Origin: Nocardioides sambongensis
GTDB taxonomy: Bacteria; Actinomycetota; Actinomycetes; Propionibacteriales; Nocardioidaceae
DNA length: 64,000 nucleotides
Assembly: GCF_006494815.1 (NCBI RefSeq)
Contig: NZ_CP041091.1
Coordinates: 186,001 to 250,000, forward strand
Reading direction: 5' to 3'
Positions 1-25,483 of the stretch are shown piece after piece. Both the position numbers and the translations under genes were made by a program. The notes beneath the pieces are model-generated. The model was not told where the DNA came from, did no database searches, and worked only from the letters and a program-made list of their open reading frames with translations. The first letter of the stretch is position 1; each line of letters opens with the position of its first letter.

Positions 1-2494
1 AGCCGTGCTCGGAGCCGGCCATCCGGGAGATGGTCTCCTCCATCAGGGTGCCGCCGAGGTCGTTGGCGCCGGAGCGGAGCATCGCCCGGGTGCCGTCGAC
101 GCCGAGCTTGACCCAGGAGGTCTGGATGTTGGGGACCCGGCCGTGGAGCAGAATGCGGGCCATCGCGTGCACGGCCAGGTTGTCCCGCAGGGTCGGGCCG
201 GGGCGGGCGACGCCGGCGAGGTAGATCGGCGCGGAGGTGTGCACGAAGGGGAGCGGCACGAACTCGGTGAAGCCCTGCGCGCCGTTCTCCAGCGCGGTGT
301 CGTGGACCCGCTTGAGCACGTTGAGGTGGCCGACCCAGTGCCGGGGGTTGTCGACGTGGCCGTACATCATCGTCGAGGTGGTCGGCACCCCGACGCGATG
401 GGCGGTGGAGACGATCTCGATCCAGGTCGAGGCGGGCAGCTTGCCCTTGGTCAGCACCCAGCGGACCTCGTCGTCCAGGATCTCCGCCGCGGTGCCGGGC
501 AGCGAGCCGAGGCCGGCCTCGCGGGCCTTGATCAGGAAGTCCTCGATGGACAGACCGGTGCGGGCGGTGCCGTTGACGACCTCCATCGGGGAGAAGGCGT
601 GCACGTGCATGTCCGGGACCCGCTGCTTGACTGCGGCGACCAGGTCGAAGTAGGCGCTGGCCGGCAGCTGCGGGTCGATGCCACCCTGCATGCAGACCTC
701 GGTGGCGCCCAGGTCCCACGCCTCCTGAGCGCGGTCGGCGACCTCGTCGTAGGAGAGCGAGTAGGCGTCGGCGTCGCTGCGGCGCTGGGCGAAGGCGCAG
801 AACCGGCAGCCGACGTAGCAGACGTTGGTGAAGTTGATGTTCCGGTTGACCACATAGGTGACGTCGTCGCCGACCGTCGCGCGACGCAGGTCGTCGGCGA
901 GCCCGGTGACCGCGCGGAGCAGGTCGCCCTCGGCGGTCATCAGGGTCAGGGCGTGCTCGTCGGAGAGGTCGACCCGGCCGGATGCCGCGGCCGCCTCGGC
1001 GGCGGCCAGCGCCTGGCGCCCCTCGGCGTGCAGGAGCGCCGGAGCCTTGGTCGACGGCCGGTCCGCGGGGTCCATCGTCCCGGTACGCCGCGCGGCCTCC
1101 TCGACACTGGCCCAGTCGCCGTAGACCGAGCCGAAGTCGCTGCGCCGGTCCTCCGAGCGACCCTCGCTGTCGACCGCCTCGTGCAGGTCGGTGCGGCCGG
1201 CGGACTCGACACCGCCGTCGGGCTCCTGCCAGGGCAGTCCGACCGGGCGGACACCGGGGAGGGCGAGGCCGTCAGGGCCGGCGAGCGCGGAGACGTGGCC
1301 GATCACGCGGGGGTCGATCCAGGCCTCGCCGCGCTCCAGCGTGCCGCGGACGTACTCGGGATGCACGGTGAGCCGGGCGCGCAGTTCGAAGCCGCTCTCG
1401 GCGGTGATCGCGCGGAGCCGGTCCAGCGAGGGCCACGGCCGTTCGGGGTTCACGTGGTCCGGGGTCAGCGGCGAGACGCCGCCCCAGTCGTCGACGCCGG
1501 CCTCGAGCAGCAGGCGGCACTCGATCGATCCCTCGTCGGAGTCGACCAGGTTCGGCGGTGCCTGGATCCGGGCCTTGGGCCCCAGCACGAGGCGGGTGAC
1601 GGCGATCGCCGCGCGGTACTCCTCCAGGCCCAGGTCATCGGTGTGCCGCATCGCGGTGTCCGGCTTGGCGCGGAAGTTCTGCACGATCACCTCCTGGACC
1701 GCGCCGTAGGCGCGGGAGGTGGCACGCAGCGCGAAGATGGTCTCGGCCCGCTCGGCCAGCGTCTCGCCGATCCCGACCAGCAGGCCGGTGGTGAAGGGGA
1801 TGCCGTGGCGTCCGGCGTCCTCGAGCACCCGGAGCCGGACCGCAGGGTCCTTGTCCGGCGAGCCGTAGTGGGCCTCGCCCTTGGTCTCGTAGAGCCGGCG
1901 GGAGGTGGTCTCCAGCATCATCCCCATGGAGGGGGAGACCGGCTTGAGCCGGTTCAGCTCCTCCCAGCTCATCACGCCGGGGTTGAGGTGCGGCAGCAGA
2001 CCGGTCTCCTCCAGCACCCGGACCGCCATCGCCCGGATGTAGGCGAGCGTGGAGTCGTAGCCCCGCTCATCGAGCCACGCACTCGCCTCGGGCCAGCGGT
2101 CCTCGGGCCGGTCGCCGAGCGTGAACAGCGCCTCCAGGCAACCGAGCTCGGCGCCCTGGCGGGCGATCTCGACGATCTCGTCGGGGGAGAGGAACAGGCT
2201 CTCGCCCTTGCGGCCGAGCTGGCCGGGCGTCTCCACGAACGTGCAGTAGTGACAGCGGTCGCGGCACAGCTTGGTGACCGGGATGAAGACCTTCGGCGAG
2301 TACGTCACCGTGGCGGGCCGCCCGGCAGCCGCCAGTCCGGCGTCGCGGACCTTGCCGGCCGCGGCGGCGAGCCGGTCCAGGTCCTCGCCGGTCGCGGCCA
2401 GCAGCACGGTGGCCTCGGCGACGTCGAGCGCCGCTCCGCGCTCGGCGCGCGCGAGCGCGCGCCGGATCTGCTGGGGCGTGGGCGCGTCGTTCAT
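1..2494 (-). CDS. fbiC: FbiC, 7,8-didemethyl-8-hydroxy-5-deazariboflavin synthase (CofG/CofH fusion), 3' end beyond window
   Basis: Two-domain radical SAM enzyme that makes the deazaflavin chromophore (Fo) of coenzyme F420 from tyrosine and a flavin-pathway pyrimidine. Reading leftward from ATG 2494-2492, the CofG half carries [12 protein letters not shown] (CxxxCxxC) near residue 75 and the CofH half carries [12 protein letters not shown] near residue 570. About 831 residues are visible; the family is about 850, so only the last 20-30 are missing. GAGGAGG precedes the ATG directly, and TAGCCT, a possible -10, lies 7 nt before it. npdG and an F420-dependent oxidoreductase within 5 kb fit an F420-using organism. 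Identification is firm from the two cysteine motifs and overall sequence. Confidence 0.96.
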
Positions 2495-2591
2495 CCTCCT
2501 CAGGCTAGCGCCCGTCCCGCGCTCCCCGAGCGGCGGTCCGCTGTGCGTGCGACCGCGGACCGACCACCGGGTATCCGGGCCCGGGCCGGGG

Positions 2592-3935
2592 TCAGTTCGG
2601 CAGCTTGGCCGTCATCCCGTCGACCACGGCGACGAACTCCTCCGACCAGTCCGGGAGCGCCGACCAGGTGACGATCCCGCCACGACCGGTGTGGGAGCTG
2701 CTGGTGGTGAACGTGCACTGCCCGCTCTGCGAGTCGCAGTCGCCGCCGTTCTGGCGCAGCGTCGCGGAGACGTCGGTGAAGGAGGCGAAGCCCTCGTAAC
2801 GCAGCTCCCACGAGCGGCAGTCGTCGATCCCGTCGGCGTCGCACCGGGGCAGCTCGCGCCAGTAGATCCGCTTCGGCTCGGCCTTGCCGCACTCCTCACC
2901 GCTGGCCTCCGCCGTGGTGCCCCACGCGTACTTCGCGGTCACCCGTGCGGTGACGCAGACCTCGGCCCCGCCCTCCTCGGCGGCCGCGCGGTAGGTGCTT
3001 CCACGCAGGGTCCGCTCCGAGCCGTCCTGCTCGATGGTCACCTTGGCCTGCGCGTTGTCGGCGGTGCTCTCGGCGAAGGTGAACCTCACGCCGCGGTAGA
3101 CCGGCGTCGTGGTGACCTTGCCGAGGGTCGGGTCGGTCACGTAGCACTCGTCGAGGTCGGCGACCGCCGCGTCGGCGGCCTGGGTGGCGGCGTCACCGCT
3201 CACCTCGAGGGCGTCCACCGCCAGGTAGTCGGCGACGGTCGGGGCGCCGACCTCACCGAGGCACTCGGTGTCGGAGAGTGCCCACTGCTCGCCGAGCTGC
3301 TCCTCCCAGTCCTCGGAGCAGTCCAGGATGCTCTCGGTGAAGGCGGAGGCGTCCGCGGCCTCCCACTCGCCGGTGTAGGTCCAGCTGTCACCGTCCTCCT
3401 CGATCAGGCCGGTCTCGGCCAAGTCGCCCGAGCGGCGCTCGCCGATCAGCTCGTCGGCGGCGCACTGCAGCTGGCTCTCCGAGGCCCACGCCGGCCCCGG
3501 CACCTCCGCGGCGATCACGTCCGCCGCCTCCTGGTCGGCCGCGCTGAGCGGGCCGAACCCCAGCCTGCCGGTGGCGAACGCCCACCCGCCGACACCGAGC
3601 ACCAGGACCAGGGCGAGTCCGAGCGCCCCGAGGGTGACCAGCAGACCGGTACGGCGTCGCTTCGGTGGAGGCCCCCACTGGCTACCACCGCCGCCGGGGC
3701 CGTACGGCGGGCCCTGCGGCGGCCACCCGCCTCCGGGCGGTGGGCCCTGAGGTGGACCTTGGGGTGGGCCTTGCGGCGGACCTTGCGGCGGTCCGGACGG
3801 GGTGCCGGGCGACCACGCCGGGGGCTGGTCGGAGGGCGGGCGCACGGTGGGAGCCGACGCCGGCGACGGGCCCGGCGTACCCGGGTCGGGCCAGGAGGGC
3901 CGGGAACCGGGCGGTGGCGGGTACGGGCCGGACAT
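2592..3935 (-). CDS. Proline-rich membrane-anchored protein of unknown function
   Basis: 447 residues from ATG 3935. The cytoplasmic N-terminus (about 1-100) is almost all Pro, Gly and Gln, with a GPPQ unit repeated several times. It is followed by a basic stop (KRRRTG), one transmembrane helix (about residues 110-135), and an extracytoplasmic domain of about 310 residues with several cysteines (AADELIG...[17 protein letters not shown]). I recognise no family. This organisation is common in actinobacterial proteins anchored through DUF4190-like N-termini. An upstream TTG would add 11 residues, but TACGAT sits 6 nt before ATG 3935, which suggests a leaderless transcript starting there. It is transcribed toward fbiC with a gap of about 100 bp. 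Confidence 0.8.
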
Positions 3936-3996
3936 GTCCGCATCGTAGGCGAATCGGGACCGTCCCAAACCTCCGCGAGCGGGCCGGGATGCGGAC

Positions 3997-4025
3997 GGGC
4001 CCCGGACGGCTGTCGTCCGGGGCCC
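3997..4025 (-). terminator. Hairpin terminator after the acyl-CoA dehydrogenase
   Basis: A perfect 11-bp inverted repeat (GGGCCCCGGAC / GTCCGGGGCCC) with a 7-nt loop lies 6 bp beyond the dehydrogenase stop. There is no T tract on the minus-strand side, as is usual for high-GC actinobacterial terminators. It separates the dehydrogenase operon from the leaderless promoter of the next gene. Confidence 0.7.
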
Positions 4026-4031
4026 GGCGCG

Positions 4032-5182
<1,151 letters not shown>

Positions 5183-19029: not shown

Positions 19030-19925
19030 ATGAGCATCTACCTCAACAAGGACAGCAAGATCATCGTCCAGGGCATCACCGGCGGCATGGGTGCCAAGCA
19101 CACCGCCCTGATGCTCGACTCCGGTGCCACCATCGTGGGCGGCGTGAACGCCCGCAAGGCCGGCACCACGGTGTCGCACAAGGACGCTGACGGCAACGAC
19201 GTCGACCTGCCGGTCTTCGGCACCGTCGCCGAGGCGATGAAGGAGACCGGCGCCGACGTGTCGGTCCTCTTCGTGCCGCCGGCCTTCACCAAGGACGCCT
19301 GCATCGAGGCCATCGACGCCGAGATGCCGCTGATCGTGGTGATCACCGAGGGCGTTCCGGTGCAGGACACCGCGGAGGTCTGGTCCTACCTGCAGGGCAA
19401 GTCCACCCGGATGATCGGTCCGAACTGCCCGGGCATCATCACCCCGGGTGAGTCGCTGGCCGGCATCACCCCGCACACCATCACCGGCTCCGGCCCGGTC
19501 GGTCTCGTCTCCAAGTCGGGCACGCTGACCTACCAGATGATGTTCGAGCTGAAGGACTTCGGCTTCTCGACCGCCATCGGCATCGGCGGCGACCCGATCG
19601 TGGGCACCACTCACATCGACGCCCTCCAGGCCTTCGAGGAGGACCCGGAGACCAAGGTGATCGTGATGATCGGCGAGATCGGTGGTGACGCCGAGGAGCG
19701 TGCCGCGGCGTACATCAAGGAGAACATCACCAAGCCGGTCGTCGGCTACGTCGCGGGCTTCACCGCCCCGAGGGCAAGACGATGGGCCACGCGGGCGCGA
19801 TCGTGTCCGGCTCCGCCGGCACCGCGGCCGCCAAGCAGGAGGCCCTCGAGGCCGTCGGCGTGAAGGTCGGCAAGACGCCGTCCGCCACCGCCGCGCTGGC
19901 CCGGGAGATCCTGGAGAGCCTCTGA
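19030..19925 (+). CDS. sucD: Succinyl-CoA synthetase, alpha subunit, one apparent 1-bp deletion
   Basis: CoA-binding subunit that carries the phosphohistidine. From ATG 19030 the frame holds through GYVAGFTAP, then goes wrong. Restoring one C in CCCC 19766-19769 gives [15 protein letters not shown] and an ordinary ending [10 protein letters not shown] with stop 19923-19925, for 298 residues, the family length. The catalytic histidine is the H of GHAGAI, so it lies in the restored part; without repair the protein would be dead. Also visible: [11 protein letters not shown] (CoA binding), [18 protein letters not shown]. As a core TCA gene it is very likely intact in the organism. Confidence 0.95.
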
Positions 19926-20020: not shown

Positions 20021-21550
20021 TCAGCCGCTGCCCTCGACGAGGTCCTGCAGTGCGGAGAACGCGGGGTCGGCGTCGGCGAGCATGCCGTCGAGGAGCGCGT
20101 TGCCGGCCTCGAGCGTGCCGCCACCCTCCTCGGTGCCGGTCATCAGGAGGAGCGCGTTGCCGGTGCGGCCGACCCACCACACCTGGGTGGACTCGGTCAC
20201 CGGCACGCCGTCGCCGGTCTCGGTCAACCGGATGATGCGGCGTGAGTCGTCGCCGAGCACGTCGCCGACGACGTCGTAGCGGGTCATCGACTCGGTGGCG
20301 TCGAGCACACAGTCGGAGAAGCCGGCGACGATGTCCTCGAGCGCGTCCTGGGCGTCCTCGTCGGTGGGGAAGAGCTGCGCCTCGCGTGCGTAGCCCTGGG
20401 TGGGCCCGGAGAGCTCGGTGGTGAGCCGGCCGGTCGGTGCCTCCGGGCCCGGCGCGCCACCGCAGCCGGAGTCGAACGCGCCGTCGAGGAGCGAGGGCCC
20501 GTCGTCGCCGGGGGCGGTGAGGTCGTAGGACGCGGCATCGTAGGAGCCCCAGCCCTGGTCGAGCGCGAAGTCCTCAGGGAAGGAGGTCACCGTGGCGGCC
20601 GCTGCGTCGCCGGGCACGGCGTCCGGTCGGGCGGTGTCGCCGGCCTCGCCGATGCCACTCTCGGTGGCGCTGGTGGTGGTGTCGGTCGACCGCTCCTCGC
20701 CGCCCGGCAGCATCAGCTCGGAGGCGACCGGCAGCATCCGCTGCATCGGCGTACCGCCCTGAGCGGGGAGGAAGTTGTAGTCCTGGCCGTAGATCTGGAC
20801 CCGGGCCACCGTCAGCCGGGTGCCGCTGACGGCCAGGCCGGTCTCGGTGATGTAGGCGGAGTCGCCGTACGGGTCGAGCTCGGGCAGCGCGCCCAGCCCG
20901 TAGTTCGCCTGCAGGATCGTCGCCTCACCCTCGGCGGGCTGGTCCACCTCCAACGGGTCGAAGATCCGGTAGTCCTCGGTGTCGGGGGCCTGTCCCCGGC
21001 ACTCGGAGACCCAGGACGCGATGGTGGTGTAGGCGGCCGCTGCCTGCTGCGGGCTCTCGAACTCGGCGACCGCCTGGTGCAGCTGGTTGGTGGGCTCCGG
21101 ATCGGTGTTCACGTCGCCGGGCCGGATGTCGGTCGGTCGCAGCTCGAAGTCGCGCTGCTGGATCGAGGTGGCGCCCAGTGCACCCATCGACTCCTGAGCG
21201 CAGGGGATGAAGGCGGACTGGCCGTCGCCGGGGTAGGTGCCGGTGGTGAACCAGTCGGCGCCGTCGGAGTAGACGGTCTCGGCGTCGCTGAGCAGGTCGG
21301 CGGGCGTCACCGGCGTGGGGTCGGTGGGGTCGGCCGGCGCCACCTTCTTGTCGCTGTCGCCGGTGAGGGCGAGCACCGGGACGGCGACGACCGCCACGGC
21401 GAGCGCGGCACCGCCGGCGGCGAGGGCGCGGCGGCGACGGCGGATCCGATCACCGCGACGGCGGATCTCGGCAGCGGGGACAGGCATGGCGCCTCCCTCG
21501 AACTCGGTGCCGAACCGGCTCAGCTCCTGGAGCGGGTCGTGGTCAGACAT
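20021..21550 (-). CDS. Membrane partner (candidate anti-sigma factor) of the adjacent ECF sigma factor
   Basis: 509 residues from ATG 21550, after GGGAGGAGG. A 45-residue cytoplasmic N-terminus (DPLQELSRFGTEFEGG ... RRRGDRIRRRRR) and one transmembrane helix (about 46-68) lead to an extracytoplasmic region of about 430 residues. That region falls into two similar halves, each with W/F-rich turns and paired cysteines (IPCAQES ... SECRGQ; DSGCGG ... FSDCVLD), reminiscent of PknH-type sensor domains. The start overlaps the sigma-factor stop by eight bases, the usual arrangement for SigE-family sigma factors and their membrane partners. The role is inferred from context and topology; no zinc anti-sigma motif is visible. 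Confidence 0.75.
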   Translation of the reverse strand: MSDHDPLQELSRFGTEFEGGAMPVPAAEIRRRGDRIRRRRRALAAGGAALAVAVVAVPVLALTGDSDKKVAPADPTDPTPVTPADLLSDAETVYSDGADWFTTGTYPGDGQSAFIPCAQESMGALGATSIQQRDFELRPTDIRPGDVNTDPEPTNQLHQAVAEFESPQQAAAAYTTIASWVSECRGQAPDTEDYRIFDPLEVDQPAEGEATILQANYGLGALPELDPYGDSAYITETGLAVSGTRLTVARVQIYGQDYNFLPAQGGTPMQRMLPVASELMLPGGEERSTDTTTSATESGIGEAGDTARPDAVPGDAAAATVTSFPEDFALDQGWGSYDAASYDLTAPGDDGPSLLDGAFDSGCGGAPGPEAPTGRLTTELSGPTQGYAREAQLFPTDEDAQDALEDIVAGFSDCVLDATESMTRYDVVGDVLGDDSRRIIRLTETGDGVPVTESTQVWWVGRTGNALLLMTGTEEGGGTLEAGNALLDGMLADADPAFSALQDLVEGSG

Positions 21551-22055
21551 GGCTGGTACCTCCTCCCGCGAGGCCGCCGGGCTCGTCACTGAGCAGGGAG
21601 GCGAGGGCGGTGCGGCCACGGCTCAGCCGGGCTTTGATGGTTCCTTCGGGCACGCCCACCTCGGCCGCGACCTGGTGCACGGGCAGGTCGGCGATGTGGT
21701 GGAGCACGAGCGCCTGCCGTTGGGCTTCGGGGAGCTGTCGGAGGGCGGCGACGAGTGCGACGTGGGACTCGTCGAGGGCCGGGACCTGGACCGGCGCCCC
21801 GACCGCCCGGTCCGCCGGTCGTGCGGCGACCTTCTTGCGGCGCCAGCGGCTCACGGCCAGGCGGTAGGCGGTGGTGCGGACCCACGCCTCGGGGTGCCCT
21901 GAGCGATCCAGCTTGCGGCGGTGGGCCCAGGCCCTGGCGAACGCCTCCTGGACGCACTCGGTCGCTTCGTCCAGGTCGCCGATCATCGCGTAGACCTGAC
22001 TGGTCACCCGGCGGAACGACGTGGTGTAGAAGTCGTCGAACTCGTCCGCTTCCAT
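21543..22055 (-). CDS. ECF RNA polymerase sigma factor, SigE-like family
   Basis: 170 residues from ATG 22055, preceded by GGAGAGGGGGAC. Region 2 shows DDFYTTSFRRVTSQVYAMIGDLDEA with VQEAFARAWAHR and WVRTTAYRLAVSRWRR; region 4 shows LRQLPEAQRQALVLHHIADLPVHQVAAEVGVPEGTIKARLSRGR. Length and order are normal for the family. It is the first gene of a pair with the downstream membrane protein and sits just downstream, on the same strand, of a sigma-like protein fused to a sensor. Its target promoters are unknown. Confidence 0.92.
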   Translation of the reverse strand: MEADEFDDFYTTSFRRVTSQVYAMIGDLDEATECVQEAFARAWAHRRKLDRSGHPEAWVRTTAYRLAVSRWRRKKVAARPADRAVGAPVQVPALDESHVALVAALRQLPEAQRQALVLHHIADLPVHQVAAEVGVPEGTIKARLSRGRTALASLLSDEPGGLAGGGTSHV

Positions 22056-22108
22056 GCCGTCCCCCTCTCCGCCTCTGTGCCGGTTGTCGTGGGAGATACG
22101 TGCCGGGC

Positions 22109-22129
22109 CGGCGACGGGTTGCGTCGCCG
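22109..22129 (-). terminator. Hairpin downstream of the sigma-sensor fusion gene
   Basis: CGGCGAC, a seven-base loop, then GTCGCCG: a perfect 7-bp stem in the 122-bp gap between the sigma-sensor gene and the ECF sigma gene. It may be a terminator or a processing/attenuation site between the two genes. Confidence 0.4.
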
Positions 22130-22177
22130 AGAGGAATTTCTCGACCGAGGCGCCGAGCCGCGGTGCGGACCCGAGGC

Positions 22178-24093
22178 TCAGCGGTAGCGTGGCATGTCGC
22201 CGAGCCGCTCGGCTGCTCGGCGGGCCAGCGCGACGAAGTCGTCGTCGGTGATCTGCGCGTCGTCCGCGCCGATGTAGATCAGCTCACTGACGGCGGTGCC
22301 GACCCGGACCACGGCGACGTCGTAGTCGACCGACGCGTCGTCGGGCAGCGCGGTCTCCATCCGCCACGCGGTGATGCTGGTCCGCTCGTCGTCCTCACGG
22401 ACCAGCTCGGTCACCTCGGTGCCGGCCGAGGAGTCGGAGTCGGGGCAGGCGGCGACCTGCCGGCGCAGCTGCGCCACGAAGCCCTGCGCCCGCGGGGTGG
22501 GCAGGGAGCCCGCCACCTGGGTAAGCCCGACGGTGGTCGGCAGGTCGCCCTCGACGAAGACGAAGTTGCGGAACACGTTGTGCTTCACCCGCGCGCCGTC
22601 ATAGCTGCGCTGCAGCGTCACCGTGTCGCAGCCCAGCACCCGGGCCTGGCCGCGCGTGGTGGTCACCTGCCGCGCCGCGGTGCCGACCAGGAAGCCGTAC
22701 TCGGCGCCGACCGGCGGCATGTCGATCGTGGAGAGGAGGGCCGAGGACCGGGGCACCGAGTACGGCGGGACGTCCTCGAGCTGCGGCTGCGACGGCGCGC
22801 AGTCGCCGCCGTCGGCGAGGTCGCAGAGGCGGTTCACCGCGGCGCCGAGCAGGTTCGCGACGCCCTGCCGGTCGGCCCGGCCCGCGGGCACGTCGGTGTC
22901 CATCGAGGTGACCGTGACGAAACGGCCGGTCCGGGCGACGCCGACCACGTGCGCGGCGGTGGGCTCGGTGGCCTGGAGCAGGAAGACCGCCGCCTCGTCG
23001 CCCACCTGGGGCGCCTCGGCGGTGCTGATCAGCTGGGTGTGCGCGAGCTCGGTGACGTCGGCCCCGTCCGGGGGAGGCAGGCGCTGAACCAGCCCAGGGC
23101 CCGTTCGTAGGCCCGGTGGGCGGCCCGGCGGTTCGTGGAGGCCTCGGCGGTCTGGGCGAAGCGTCGCTCCGTATCGCTCAGCCGGAAGATCCTGGCCCAG
23201 GCGGCGACACCGCGCGGGTCGGCGTACCGGCTGCTCTGGCAGTGGTGGACCAGGCCGTTCCCGGTCGAGTTGTCGGTGGTGCGGCCCTGGACCCACGGAC
23301 GGCCGGCCAGGGTGCCCTGCACGTCCTCCTGGGTGAGCAGCGCGGTGTCGGGCAGCCGGACCTGGGCCGTCGGTGCCTGCGAGCTCGCCGCCTCCGGGAG
23401 CGGCTCGCGGTCCAGGGTCGGCCGGACCCCGGCGGCGTCGCCGACCGCGATGCCGGCGCCGAGGAAGACGGCCACCGCGGCGGTCACGCCGACCACGGTG
23501 TGGGCGCGGCGCCGGGCGGCCCCGGCCCGGCGGATGATGGTGGGCCGAGGCCAGGTCGCCGACTCGGTGACCCGGGCCAGACCTGCCAGCGCGGTGTGGA
23601 TCGGGACGTCGTCGGGCACGTCGGGCTGGGTGACGAAGCGGGCCGCGCCGGCCTGGAGCTCGCGCTCGGCCTCCTCGACCGGCAGCCCGATCTCGCGCGC
23701 CATGTCCTGCAGGCTCACCGCGGCCAGCTGGGTGAGGATCAGTGCCGAACGCTGGCGGTGGGTCAGCGCCGAGAGCGCGGACAGCGTGGCCTTCGTGGTG
23801 GGGTCGAGGTCCTTGGTCCTCCCCCACGGCTTGGCAGTGGTACGGCGGGTGGCGTTGCGCCACGCCCGCGGCCGCACCTCGGCCTCGGCGAGTTCGTTGC
23901 GGGACAGCTTGCGCCAGTGGTGCCAGGCGACGACGAAGGCGTCGCGCACCGCGCTGCGCGAGGCGTTCAGGTCGCCGGTGAGGGCGAAGGTCTGCAGCAG
24001 CAGTCGGTCCCGGGTCTGCTTGTAGAACGCATCGAAACCGTCGGCGAGGGCCTCACGCGTCGGGGGATCGGTGCGCGGGTCGAGGTCGTTCAT
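22178..24093 (-). CDS. Sigma-70-like domain fused to a transmembrane helix and extracytoplasmic sensor, one apparent 1-bp deletion
   Basis: 638 residues after repair, from ATG 24093. Residues 20-90 resemble sigma region 2 (FDAFYKQTRDRLLLQTFALTGD ... VRDAFVVAWHHWRKL) and about 110-170 resemble region 4 (LTHRQRSALILTQLAAVSLQDMAREIG). One helix (VVGVTAAVAVFLGAGIAVG, about 215-235) follows, then about 400 extracytoplasmic residues in two cysteine-containing lobes. The frame breaks at GGGGG 23070-23074; one restored base joins SACLP to PDGADVTEL. Region 2 is degenerate beside the neighbouring ECF factor, so it may be a regulated sigma factor, a decoy, or a membrane-tethered DNA-binding sensor. TAGGTT lies 9 nt before the ATG. 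Confidence 0.82.
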
Positions 24094-24172
24094 GGCCGCT
24101 CCAACCTACGCCATCGTGGTTGCGGCGTGGCAGCGCCACCGGGCCGGGCTCCCGGCTCATCATGGAGGCACC

Positions 24173-25483
24173 ATGACGTCGCTTCCCTCGTCCCTCACCC
24201 GCGGGTCCGCGGAGGGTCGCTCGCGCAGCGCCGCCGAGGTCCGGCGGGACCTCGCGACGCGCCGCCCGCTGGTCCTCACCGCGACCGTCGGGGGAGCGCT
24301 GGCCGCGCTCGGGCCGCTGATGGTCTGTCTCGCGCTGGGCGTCGTGGGCTGGTTCCTCACCGATGCCGGCGGTCACGGCCAACCCTCCGACGCGCTGCGG
24401 GTCGGTGCCTTCGGTTGGCTACTCGCCCACGGCTCCGGCGTGGTGGTCGACGGGGTCCGGATCACCGCGATCCCCCTCGGCATCACCCTCGGCTGCGCCT
24501 GGGCCACCTGGCGGCTCGGGCACCGGGTCGGTGAGGCGGTCTCCGGGCACGGTCCCGACAACGACCGGATCGCCGACGGCGAGCGGGACTGGACCGTCCC
24601 GGTCGCGGTGGCCCTCTTCGCCGCCGGCTACGTCGTGGTCGGGGTGGGCACGGCGGTCCTGGCCTCGACGATGAGCACCGCGCCCAGCCTGACCCGGGTG
24701 GTCGGCTCGTCGATCGGGATCGCCGCGATCGTCGGCGGCCCGGCGATCGCCCGCGGGGCCGGACGCGCGGCGATCTGGACCCAGCACCTGCCGTCCTCGC
24801 TGCGTGCGGCCTACGGCGTCGCCCGCGGCATCCTGGTGTGGTGGCTGGGCCTGTCCACCCTCGCCTTCCTCGTCGCCCTGGTCCTCGACTTCTCCACCGC
24901 GGCCAACATCACCTCCCAGCTCGACGGCGGCACCGCGGACACCGTGGCGCTGCTGGCACTGTCGCTGGCCCTGCTGCCCAACGCGGCGCTGTTCACCAGC
25001 AGCTATCTGATGGGGCCGGGCTTCGTGATCGGCACCGGCACCCTGGTCTCACCCACCCTCGTCGTGCTCGGCCCGCTGCCGATGGTGCCGATGCTCGCGG
25101 CGCTGCCGGACAGCTCGCCCACGCCGTCCTGGACGCCGTGGCTGATGGTCACTCCGGTGCTGCTCGCCGCCGTCGTCGCCGGGCGCGCGGTGCACCGTCA
25201 CCCGGCCGGCTCCTGGGACCGGGCGGCCGTGCGCGGCTGCGGCGGCGGGATCGTCGCCGGCGTGCTGCTCGGCGCGCTCACCGCGTTCGCCGGCGGTGCG
25301 GTCGGACCGGGCCGGATGCAGGACGTGGGCCCCGTCGCCACCGACGTGCTGCTGCACGCGACCACCGCTCTCGGCATCGGCGGCCTGCTCGGCGCGTTGG
25401 CGGTGACCGGCTGGCAGTCCCGCGGCGGACGACTCCGGGACCGCCTGAGCGGCCTGCGCGCCCGACTGCCGCGACGCGGCTGA
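24173..25483 (+). CDS. DUF6350 polytopic membrane protein (PerM-like)
   Basis: 436 residues from ATG 24173, with GGAGG five bases upstream. About ten hydrophobic segments spread along the protein, with small polar loops (RIADGERDW, PDSSPTPSWTP) and a basic C-terminus. The family lies just upstream of purN-purH in many actinobacteria; a mycobacterial relative, PerM, has been linked to cell division under stress. Function here is inferred only from family and position. The purN promoter lies in the 35-bp gap downstream. Confidence 0.85.
   Translation: MTSLPSSLTRGSAEGRSRSAAEVRRDLATRRPLVLTATVGGALAALGPLMVCLALGVVGWFLTDAGGHGQPSDALRVGAFGWLLAHGSGVVVDGVRITAIPLGITLGCAWATWRLGHRVGEAVSGHGPDNDRIADGERDWTVPVAVALFAAGYVVVGVGTAVLASTMSTAPSLTRVVGSSIGIAAIVGGPAIARGAGRAAIWTQHLPSSLRAAYGVARGILVWWLGLSTLAFLVALVLDFSTAANITSQLDGGTADTVALLALSLALLPNAALFTSSYLMGPGFVIGTGTLVSPTLVVLGPLPMVPMLAALPDSSPTPSWTPWLMVTPVLLAAVVAGRAVHRHPAGSWDRAAVRGCGGGIVAGVLLGALTAFAGGAVGPGRMQDVGPVATDVLLHATTALGIGGLLGALAVTGWQSRGGRLRDRLSGLRARLPRRG

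Follow-up and report, generated by a model that had tools for sequence, protein, structure and literature searches.

Sigma factors of the extracytoplasmic function (ECF) type that are fused to a transmembrane segment are already on record, the accessible portion of one account (PMC8999054) naming ECF48, ECF52, ECF53 and IutY. In ECF52 (SCO4117), as in ECF48 and ECF53 of Actinobacteria, a single protein unites an ECF sigma part, a transmembrane helix and an outer domain; ECF52 additionally has its own zinc-finger domain, a proline-rich stretch and a carbohydrate-binding domain (PMC5826349 and PMC8999054, in the sections accessible). IutY (ECF243) of Pseudomonas putida joins a sigma factor to a membrane anti-sigma part, serves iron cell-surface signaling with an active sigma part, and has been demonstrated to undergo proteolytic release (PMC8999054, same portion). 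PhyR of alphaproteobacteria, a response-regulator protein, provides a further point of comparison, in that a sigma factor domain there antagonizes an anti-sigma factor (on the partial accounts available). Here we consider a locus of Nocardioides sambongensis, lying in a window of 64,000 nucleotides (contig NZ_CP041091.1, positions 186,001–250,000; coordinates below are those of the window), at which three minus-strand genes (20021–24093) encode, in order from upstream, a protein fusing a sigma-like module to a membrane helix and an ectodomain, a free ECF sigma factor, and a single-helix membrane partner. The three genes are bounded by sucD and by a divergent gene of the DUF6350 type.

We read the fusion, tentatively and with a confidence just short of even, as a membrane-tethered sigma mimic and not as a promoter-specific sigma factor awaiting release, because the glutamine that contacts β′ and most of the basic helix that reads the −35 element have been lost in a conserved manner. 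Relative to ECF52, the fusion has no conserved cytosolic cysteine, carries a six-cysteine, two-lobed ectodomain and lacks key sigma contacts. The open literature yielded no description of this fusion, of this ectodomain on a fused ECF, or of a conserved contact loss, and from the sequences it would be the ectodomain and the contact losses that set the protein apart from described fused sigmas. The preliminary description of the locus had proposed an undescribed signaling system, a claim that stands in this narrower form and not for fused ECF–transmembrane proteins as such (already described in the accessible part of PMC8999054). The features of the locus are as follows.

23029–24093, minus strand: first part of the fusion (σ2/σ4-like module, juxtamembrane arginine motif, transmembrane helix at ~23440–23505, start of lobe 1).
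22178 to about 23074, minus strand: second part of the fusion, in another frame (remainder of lobe 1, and lobe 2).
23644–24036, minus strand: approximate span of the sigma-like module of the fusion (σ2 then σ4), with glutamine changed to arginine and few basic recognition-helix residues left.
21543–22055, minus strand: free ECF sigma factor of the SigE type, contact residues retained.
20021–21550, minus strand, ATG at 21550: membrane partner of the free sigma, with one helix and two related outer lobes.
22096–22122, minus strand: putative ECF-type promoter GCAACC-N16-CGTAT, 5′ of the free sigma gene and kept in relatives.
19030–19913, plus strand: sucD, the conserved neighbor anchoring the locus, in two frames in the assembly.
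24071–25483, plus strand: membrane protein, the divergent neighbor on the far side of the locus.

Contact residues were compared among 36 free sigmas (23 adjoining fusions, 6 at further loci and 7 of group f4), 38 fusions (the window, 36 congeners and the L039 locus), 19 further fusions of the family, and 11 short tethered proteins of another family (f22). The contact and charge counts include the further fusions of L119, L129, L123 and L130, which were left out of the tree and wider analyses (15 rows); L128, another further fusion, is of the window's genus. The β′-contact glutamine, which aligns with Q406 of σ70, is present in all 36 free sigmas of the locus; among 20 other ECF loci in the window genome, 16 have it, one is gapped and three have other residues. 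The fusions have arginine at this position in 37 of 38 cases, the single glutamine being that of the frame-broken L075, and glutamine is found in none of the 19 further fusions or 11 short proteins. Contacts with the β′ coiled coil are common to primary and ECF sigmas according to the accessible part of PMC6411747, in which R186 of Mycobacterium tuberculosis SigH is also described as making two hydrogen bonds to G-34 of the −35 element. The equivalent arginine occurs in 36/36 free sigmas and 13/20 other ECFs (two gapped, five other), as against 2/38 fusions, 3/19 further fusions and 1/11 short proteins; two of the four fusions at L119, L129, L123 and L130 keep it. Pooling the 57 fusions, the glutamine is lost in 56 and the −35 arginine in 52. 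The 14-residue recognition helix carries a charge of +3 to +4 in the free sigmas (n = 36) and +1 to +5 in the other ECFs, of which 17 of 20 align here, compared with −3 to +1 in the 38 fusions, −4 to +3 in the further 19 and +1 to +3 in the 11 short proteins. Conservation is likewise differently placed: σ4 is the better conserved half of the free sigmas (0.858 versus 0.80 for σ2) and the less conserved half of the fusions of the same genomes (0.555 versus 0.666). In a midpoint-rooted FastTree phylogeny, from which 7 of the 20 other-ECF sequences were left out, the tethered modules group apart from canonical sigmas as one clade (support 0.888).

These results bear on a proposal of the preliminary description, that the fusion is a sigma factor kept at the membrane until regulated proteolysis releases it. 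In such a scheme, which has been proposed for ECF52 and demonstrated for IutY, the ectodomain would sense a signal, the protein would be cut, and the sigma part would join RNA polymerase. The domain order does equal that of the described fused ECFs (PMC8999054, PMC5826349, accessible sections); the one helix is preceded by an arginine-rich stretch, so that the sigma part is probably cytosolic; σ2 is the best conserved domain of the fusion; and the three retained −35 arginines of the further family fusions fit a working sigma. A released sigma is difficult to square, however, with the pooled contact losses, with a σ4 that is relaxed compared with that of free sigmas, and with the absence of an autoregulatory-type promoter at any of 38 fusions. 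Nor does the protein have a zinc-binding anti-sigma domain like that of ECF52, since the majority cysteine columns of 36 fusions all fall in the ectodomain, and no zinc-finger Pfam match was obtained. The proposal is weakened by the contact-residue losses in particular, and we consider it unlikely, if far from negligible.

Several considerations nevertheless weigh against a mimic. Loss of a single contact is no proof that polymerase binding is lost, as other residues may serve, and the fused module may be a sigma factor that reads chiefly a −10 element. Canonical ECFs vary too, the glutamine being absent from 3 of 19 aligned and the −35 arginine from 5 of 18, and charge over the 27 columns of the helix-turn-helix overlaps more than that of the recognition helix (−2 to +6 in other ECFs, −5 to 0 in fusions). 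The degeneration is uneven, in that the 11 short proteins keep +1 to +3 and L119 has both +3 and the arginine; the branching of the short proteins outside all fusions is supported by just 0.026.

We regard the fusion as an old joining of a pair of the sigma and membrane-partner type, whose cytosolic part retains the σ2/σ4 shape but has lost the σ2–β′ glutamine and most of the σ4 basic residues that read the −35 element. If it is indeed a tethered mimic, a signal on the six-cysteine ectodomain would alter which protein the sigma-shaped part binds, the candidates being RNA polymerase, some further regulator, or an anti-sigma-like membrane protein bound through its short cytosolic tail. Such a protein would represent, at the membrane and in another phylum, a counterpart of PhyR, and the label of sigma factor may be mistaken for some proteins that bear it.

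The fused module lies below the cut-offs of both TIGR02983 (47.8 bits versus 141.55) and TIGR02937 (16.4 versus 42.9), and in Pfam below that of Sigma70_r4_2 (19.3 versus 25.7), with no Sigma70_r2 match; 25 of 32 relatives match Sigma70_r4_2 at E ≤ 0.01. Its relationship to PhyR is limited to a weak region 4 match (E 0.0038), the fusion and its relatives having no receiver-domain Pfam match, and a search of PDB sequences with the fusion profile likewise gave weak region 4 matches only (best E 0.0048). AlphaFold2, run with few alignment rows, produced poor models (mean predicted local distance difference test scores of 39.5 and 33.5). The hydrophobic helix exceeds threshold in 35 of 37 fusion loci, the exceptions being L061 (1.46) and L075, and the six ectodomain cysteines are invariant in 36/36 fusions (from residue 281 of L039). 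The juxtamembrane arginine group and many σ2 residues are also invariant in a 32-row alignment.

This conservation is informative as to whether the fused sigma part might be a functionless relic, the membrane sensor alone being what matters. Non-recognition of the fused σ2 by Pfam would suit a relic, as would the locus protein of group f3, which has an ectodomain of this kind without a sigma part (8 loci, of which three were read). Mean pairwise identity over 36 fusions (37 loci less L075) is, however, highest for σ2 (0.634), followed by σ4 (0.50), the juxtamembrane part (0.477) and the lobes (0.398 and 0.431), and for every one of the 14 closest pairs σ2 changes fall mostly at third codon positions, codon-position counts in these pairs having been used after the ratio of nonsynonymous to synonymous rates across all 630 pairs proved saturated and was discarded. 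The top identity and third-position bias indicate a module under selection and not one decaying: judged by these substitution patterns, the fused sigma module is under purifying selection. It has moreover persisted in 181 of the 198 genomes of the family, and we regard a relic as very improbable. An earlier characterization of region 2 as degenerate was borne out for the core-contact glutamine; σ2 is otherwise the most conserved domain, and a second clear loss affects the recognition helix of region 4.

In the window assembly the fusion occupies two frames (23029–24093 and 22178 to ~23074), the switch occurring in a C run near 23065–23073. A single open frame spans both halves at 35 of the 36 congener loci (L040–L074; the exception, L075, is genome G029) and also in L039 (Nocardioides immobilis). 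Since sucD, 3.3 kb away, is also in two frames at a C run (19036–19782 and 19755–19913), an assembly indel is the likely cause of the split. The description of sigma-like module, helix and ectodomain as one protein is thereby upheld, including at the 23070 site, where a division into two proteins had been a concern. A gene truly broken in this strain, or two separate proteins, would agree with the two frames of this assembly and with other split genomes (L075 and L114, with internal stops in G092 and G075); given the one-frame congeners and the break of the same kind in sucD, which points to assembly errors, we think it quite improbable. A codon-phase scan of the window flagged no frame break, the known ones included, and was uninformative. 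In the single-contig genome G103 (L114), the sigma-like part and the helix-plus-ectodomain part are in separate frames, which may reflect a true split or an error, and one draft genome (L123, 7458–8192) has sucD in two open frames too.

The free sigma is a canonical member of the ECF superfamily, scoring 68.5 bits with TIGR02937 (cut-off 42.9), exceeding the cut-offs of both Pfam Sigma70 region 2 and region 4 models, and falling slightly below that of TIGR02983 (140.1 versus 141.55). As the preliminary description had it, its gene overlaps that of a membrane protein, the partner start (ATG 21550) overlapping the sigma stop by 8 bases. A single-helix protein follows every free sigma copy (22/22 copies, 20 loci), with the identical 8-base overlap in 16 of 22 (offset −4, counted from the final sense base). 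The partner matches PknH_C (PF14032) at 30.3 bits (cut-off 27) in one stretch, over lobe 1 only; its cytosolic tail of ~40 residues has no anti-sigma Pfam match of the kind expected of class I anti-sigma factors, and a PDB sequence search with the partner returned nothing credible (best E 0.84).

GCAACC-N16-CGTAY or a near form precedes 18 of the 23 free sigma genes (0.14 in shuffles, which preserve base composition only) and none of the 38 fusions. As the pattern was picked from the window's sequence, the remaining 22 loci constitute the test, of which 17 are positive; the start in L046 was taken too far upstream. A slightly looser pattern is present in all five further family loci with a free sigma (L116, L117, L128, L131 and L133), occurs as a CGTC version in L158 and L162, and is absent from 11 of 18 further free-sigma loci, all 7 of f4 included, the sigma starts in these 18 being approximate. 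Genome-wide there are 3 sites, that at 22096–22122 included (control 0), and hence no regulon can be named. The conserved promoter appears to resemble an autoregulated ECF promoter, and the free sigma probably drives it; together with its partner, which would hold the sigma, we infer that it forms an ordinary ECF system. Together with this conserved promoter, the pair provides a ready reporter. Two loci have tandem free sigma and partner pairs beside the fusion (L072, 1445–1951 and 3595–4095; L074, 4580–5086 and 6729–7229), and extra partner-like outer-domain sequence lies between the free pair and sucD in L041 (1519–2139), L044 (1567–2130), L045 (6915–7550) and L039 (10738–11172, in a separate 250-residue frame).

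The two ectodomains had been described as similar and two-lobed. Profile comparison by hhalign (36 fusions; 18 of 23 partners, those longer than 400 residues) gives 97.1 (E 5e-11) between first lobes, 92.9 for fusion lobe 1 against partner lobe 2, 85.4 for fusion lobe 2 against partner lobe 1, 97.0 for the whole ectodomains and 97.9 between the partner's lobes. Scores are low between the two second lobes (14.5) and between the fusion's own lobes (37.7). On these profiles the first lobes clearly match, whereas likeness in lobe 2 is weaker, so that the earlier statement holds in part; at sequence level nothing points to unrelated ectodomains. As to the likening of the sensor to PknH, the partner's lobe 1 passes the PknH_C cut-off, the window fusion pieces have no match, and 4 of 32 fusion relatives match at E ≤ 0.01. 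PknH_C here accompanies no kinase, and the lobes are in tandem, either joined to a sigma-like module or borne by the partner of a sigma.

The relatedness of the ectodomains also speaks for a decoy dedicated to the neighboring pair, in which the fused module competes for the partner's cytosolic tail and so tunes the free sigma, as had been suggested; this overlaps with the mimic that we favor. The fusion adjoins the pair in 21 of 38 loci, and sigma mimics that titrate an anti-sigma factor are known (PhyR, on the partial accounts available). When set against the 7 partner-bearing loci from other groups, the juxtamembrane fusion profile matches the partner tail in 4 (L158, L162, L170 and L089; not L085, L115 or L164), but scores just 42.9 against partner tails of the genus. 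The three-gene order of the preliminary description extends to somewhat over half of the loci, the other 17 of 38 having a fusion without an adjoining free sigma (at least 60% identity), and in these the recognition helix is similarly degenerate (mean charge −0.94, versus −1.57 with the pair). Nine of the 17 pairless genomes have no free-sigma relative at E ≤ 1e-25; the other eight have more distant ones elsewhere, which could be targets. As the fusion is common without the pair, a dedicated decoy is not its general function, and we judge such a decoy improbable overall, although the role may hold in the clade that has both fusion and pair.

The fusion is present in all 36 congeners searched, L039 being a close locus (57% identity), and a 32-row fusion profile finds matches (E ≤ 1e-25) in 181 of the 198 genomes of the family, including 157 of the 166 good ones, and in 20 of its 26 genera. 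Among the matches listed, most span the whole model; those of G158, G163, G103, G187, G029 and the window are partial, and two have an internal stop. A sample drawn from across the class gave matches in 110 of 296 genomes (E ≤ 1e-8); among those listed from beyond the order, most involve the sigma part alone. In one genus of the large-genome family f22, a sigma-like module is followed by a hydrophobic stretch and a short tail; sucD adjoins in 11 of 11 fetched loci, and a DUF6350 relative was detected opposite in 6. The stretch passes threshold in just 4 of 11 (best 19-residue means 1.23–2.37), so that to judge by hydrophobicity a membrane span is likely but not sure. With a profile of the short protein, matches at E ≤ 1e-20 were obtained in 27 f22 genomes, and in 21 of these they cover the full model. 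Taken with the linkage to sucD and the presence in 181 of 198 genomes, this shorter relative in another family suggests, as a possibility to which we lend rather less than even credence, a pseudo-sigma family: an ECF sigma fixed to a sensor and now a mimic acting by protein binding.

Other genomes carry different members of what appears to be a series at this locus. In group f4 a free sigma occurs at all 7 loci fetched, accompanied by a one-helix partner at each of the 4 that were read, and genome G327 has a free sigma and partner. Free pairs also occur at the sucD-anchored loci L158, L162, L164 and L170, from 20 loci fetched out of 60 genomes searched; these four were chosen in the knowledge of a sigma match nearby, and L157 and L159 end at contig ends, so that 4 of 20 is no frequency. 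Locus L164, of another family, has two tandem free sigma and partner pairs near sucD. We take the fusion to be derived, and the free pair to be the ancestral arrangement at this locus. An ectodomain protein without a sigma match is found in 8 of 8 f3 loci (L076, L081 and L084 being those read), and in the f2 genomes G045 and G037 an ectodomain protein again has no sigma part. Free sigma with partner, fused degenerate sigma with sensor, and sensor without sigma thus form a natural series at one locus, which allows one to ask how a sigma factor turns into something else. In G045 (L079, oriented 2079–4430), a 784-residue relative has a long, acidic, low-complexity cytosolic part in place of the sigma.

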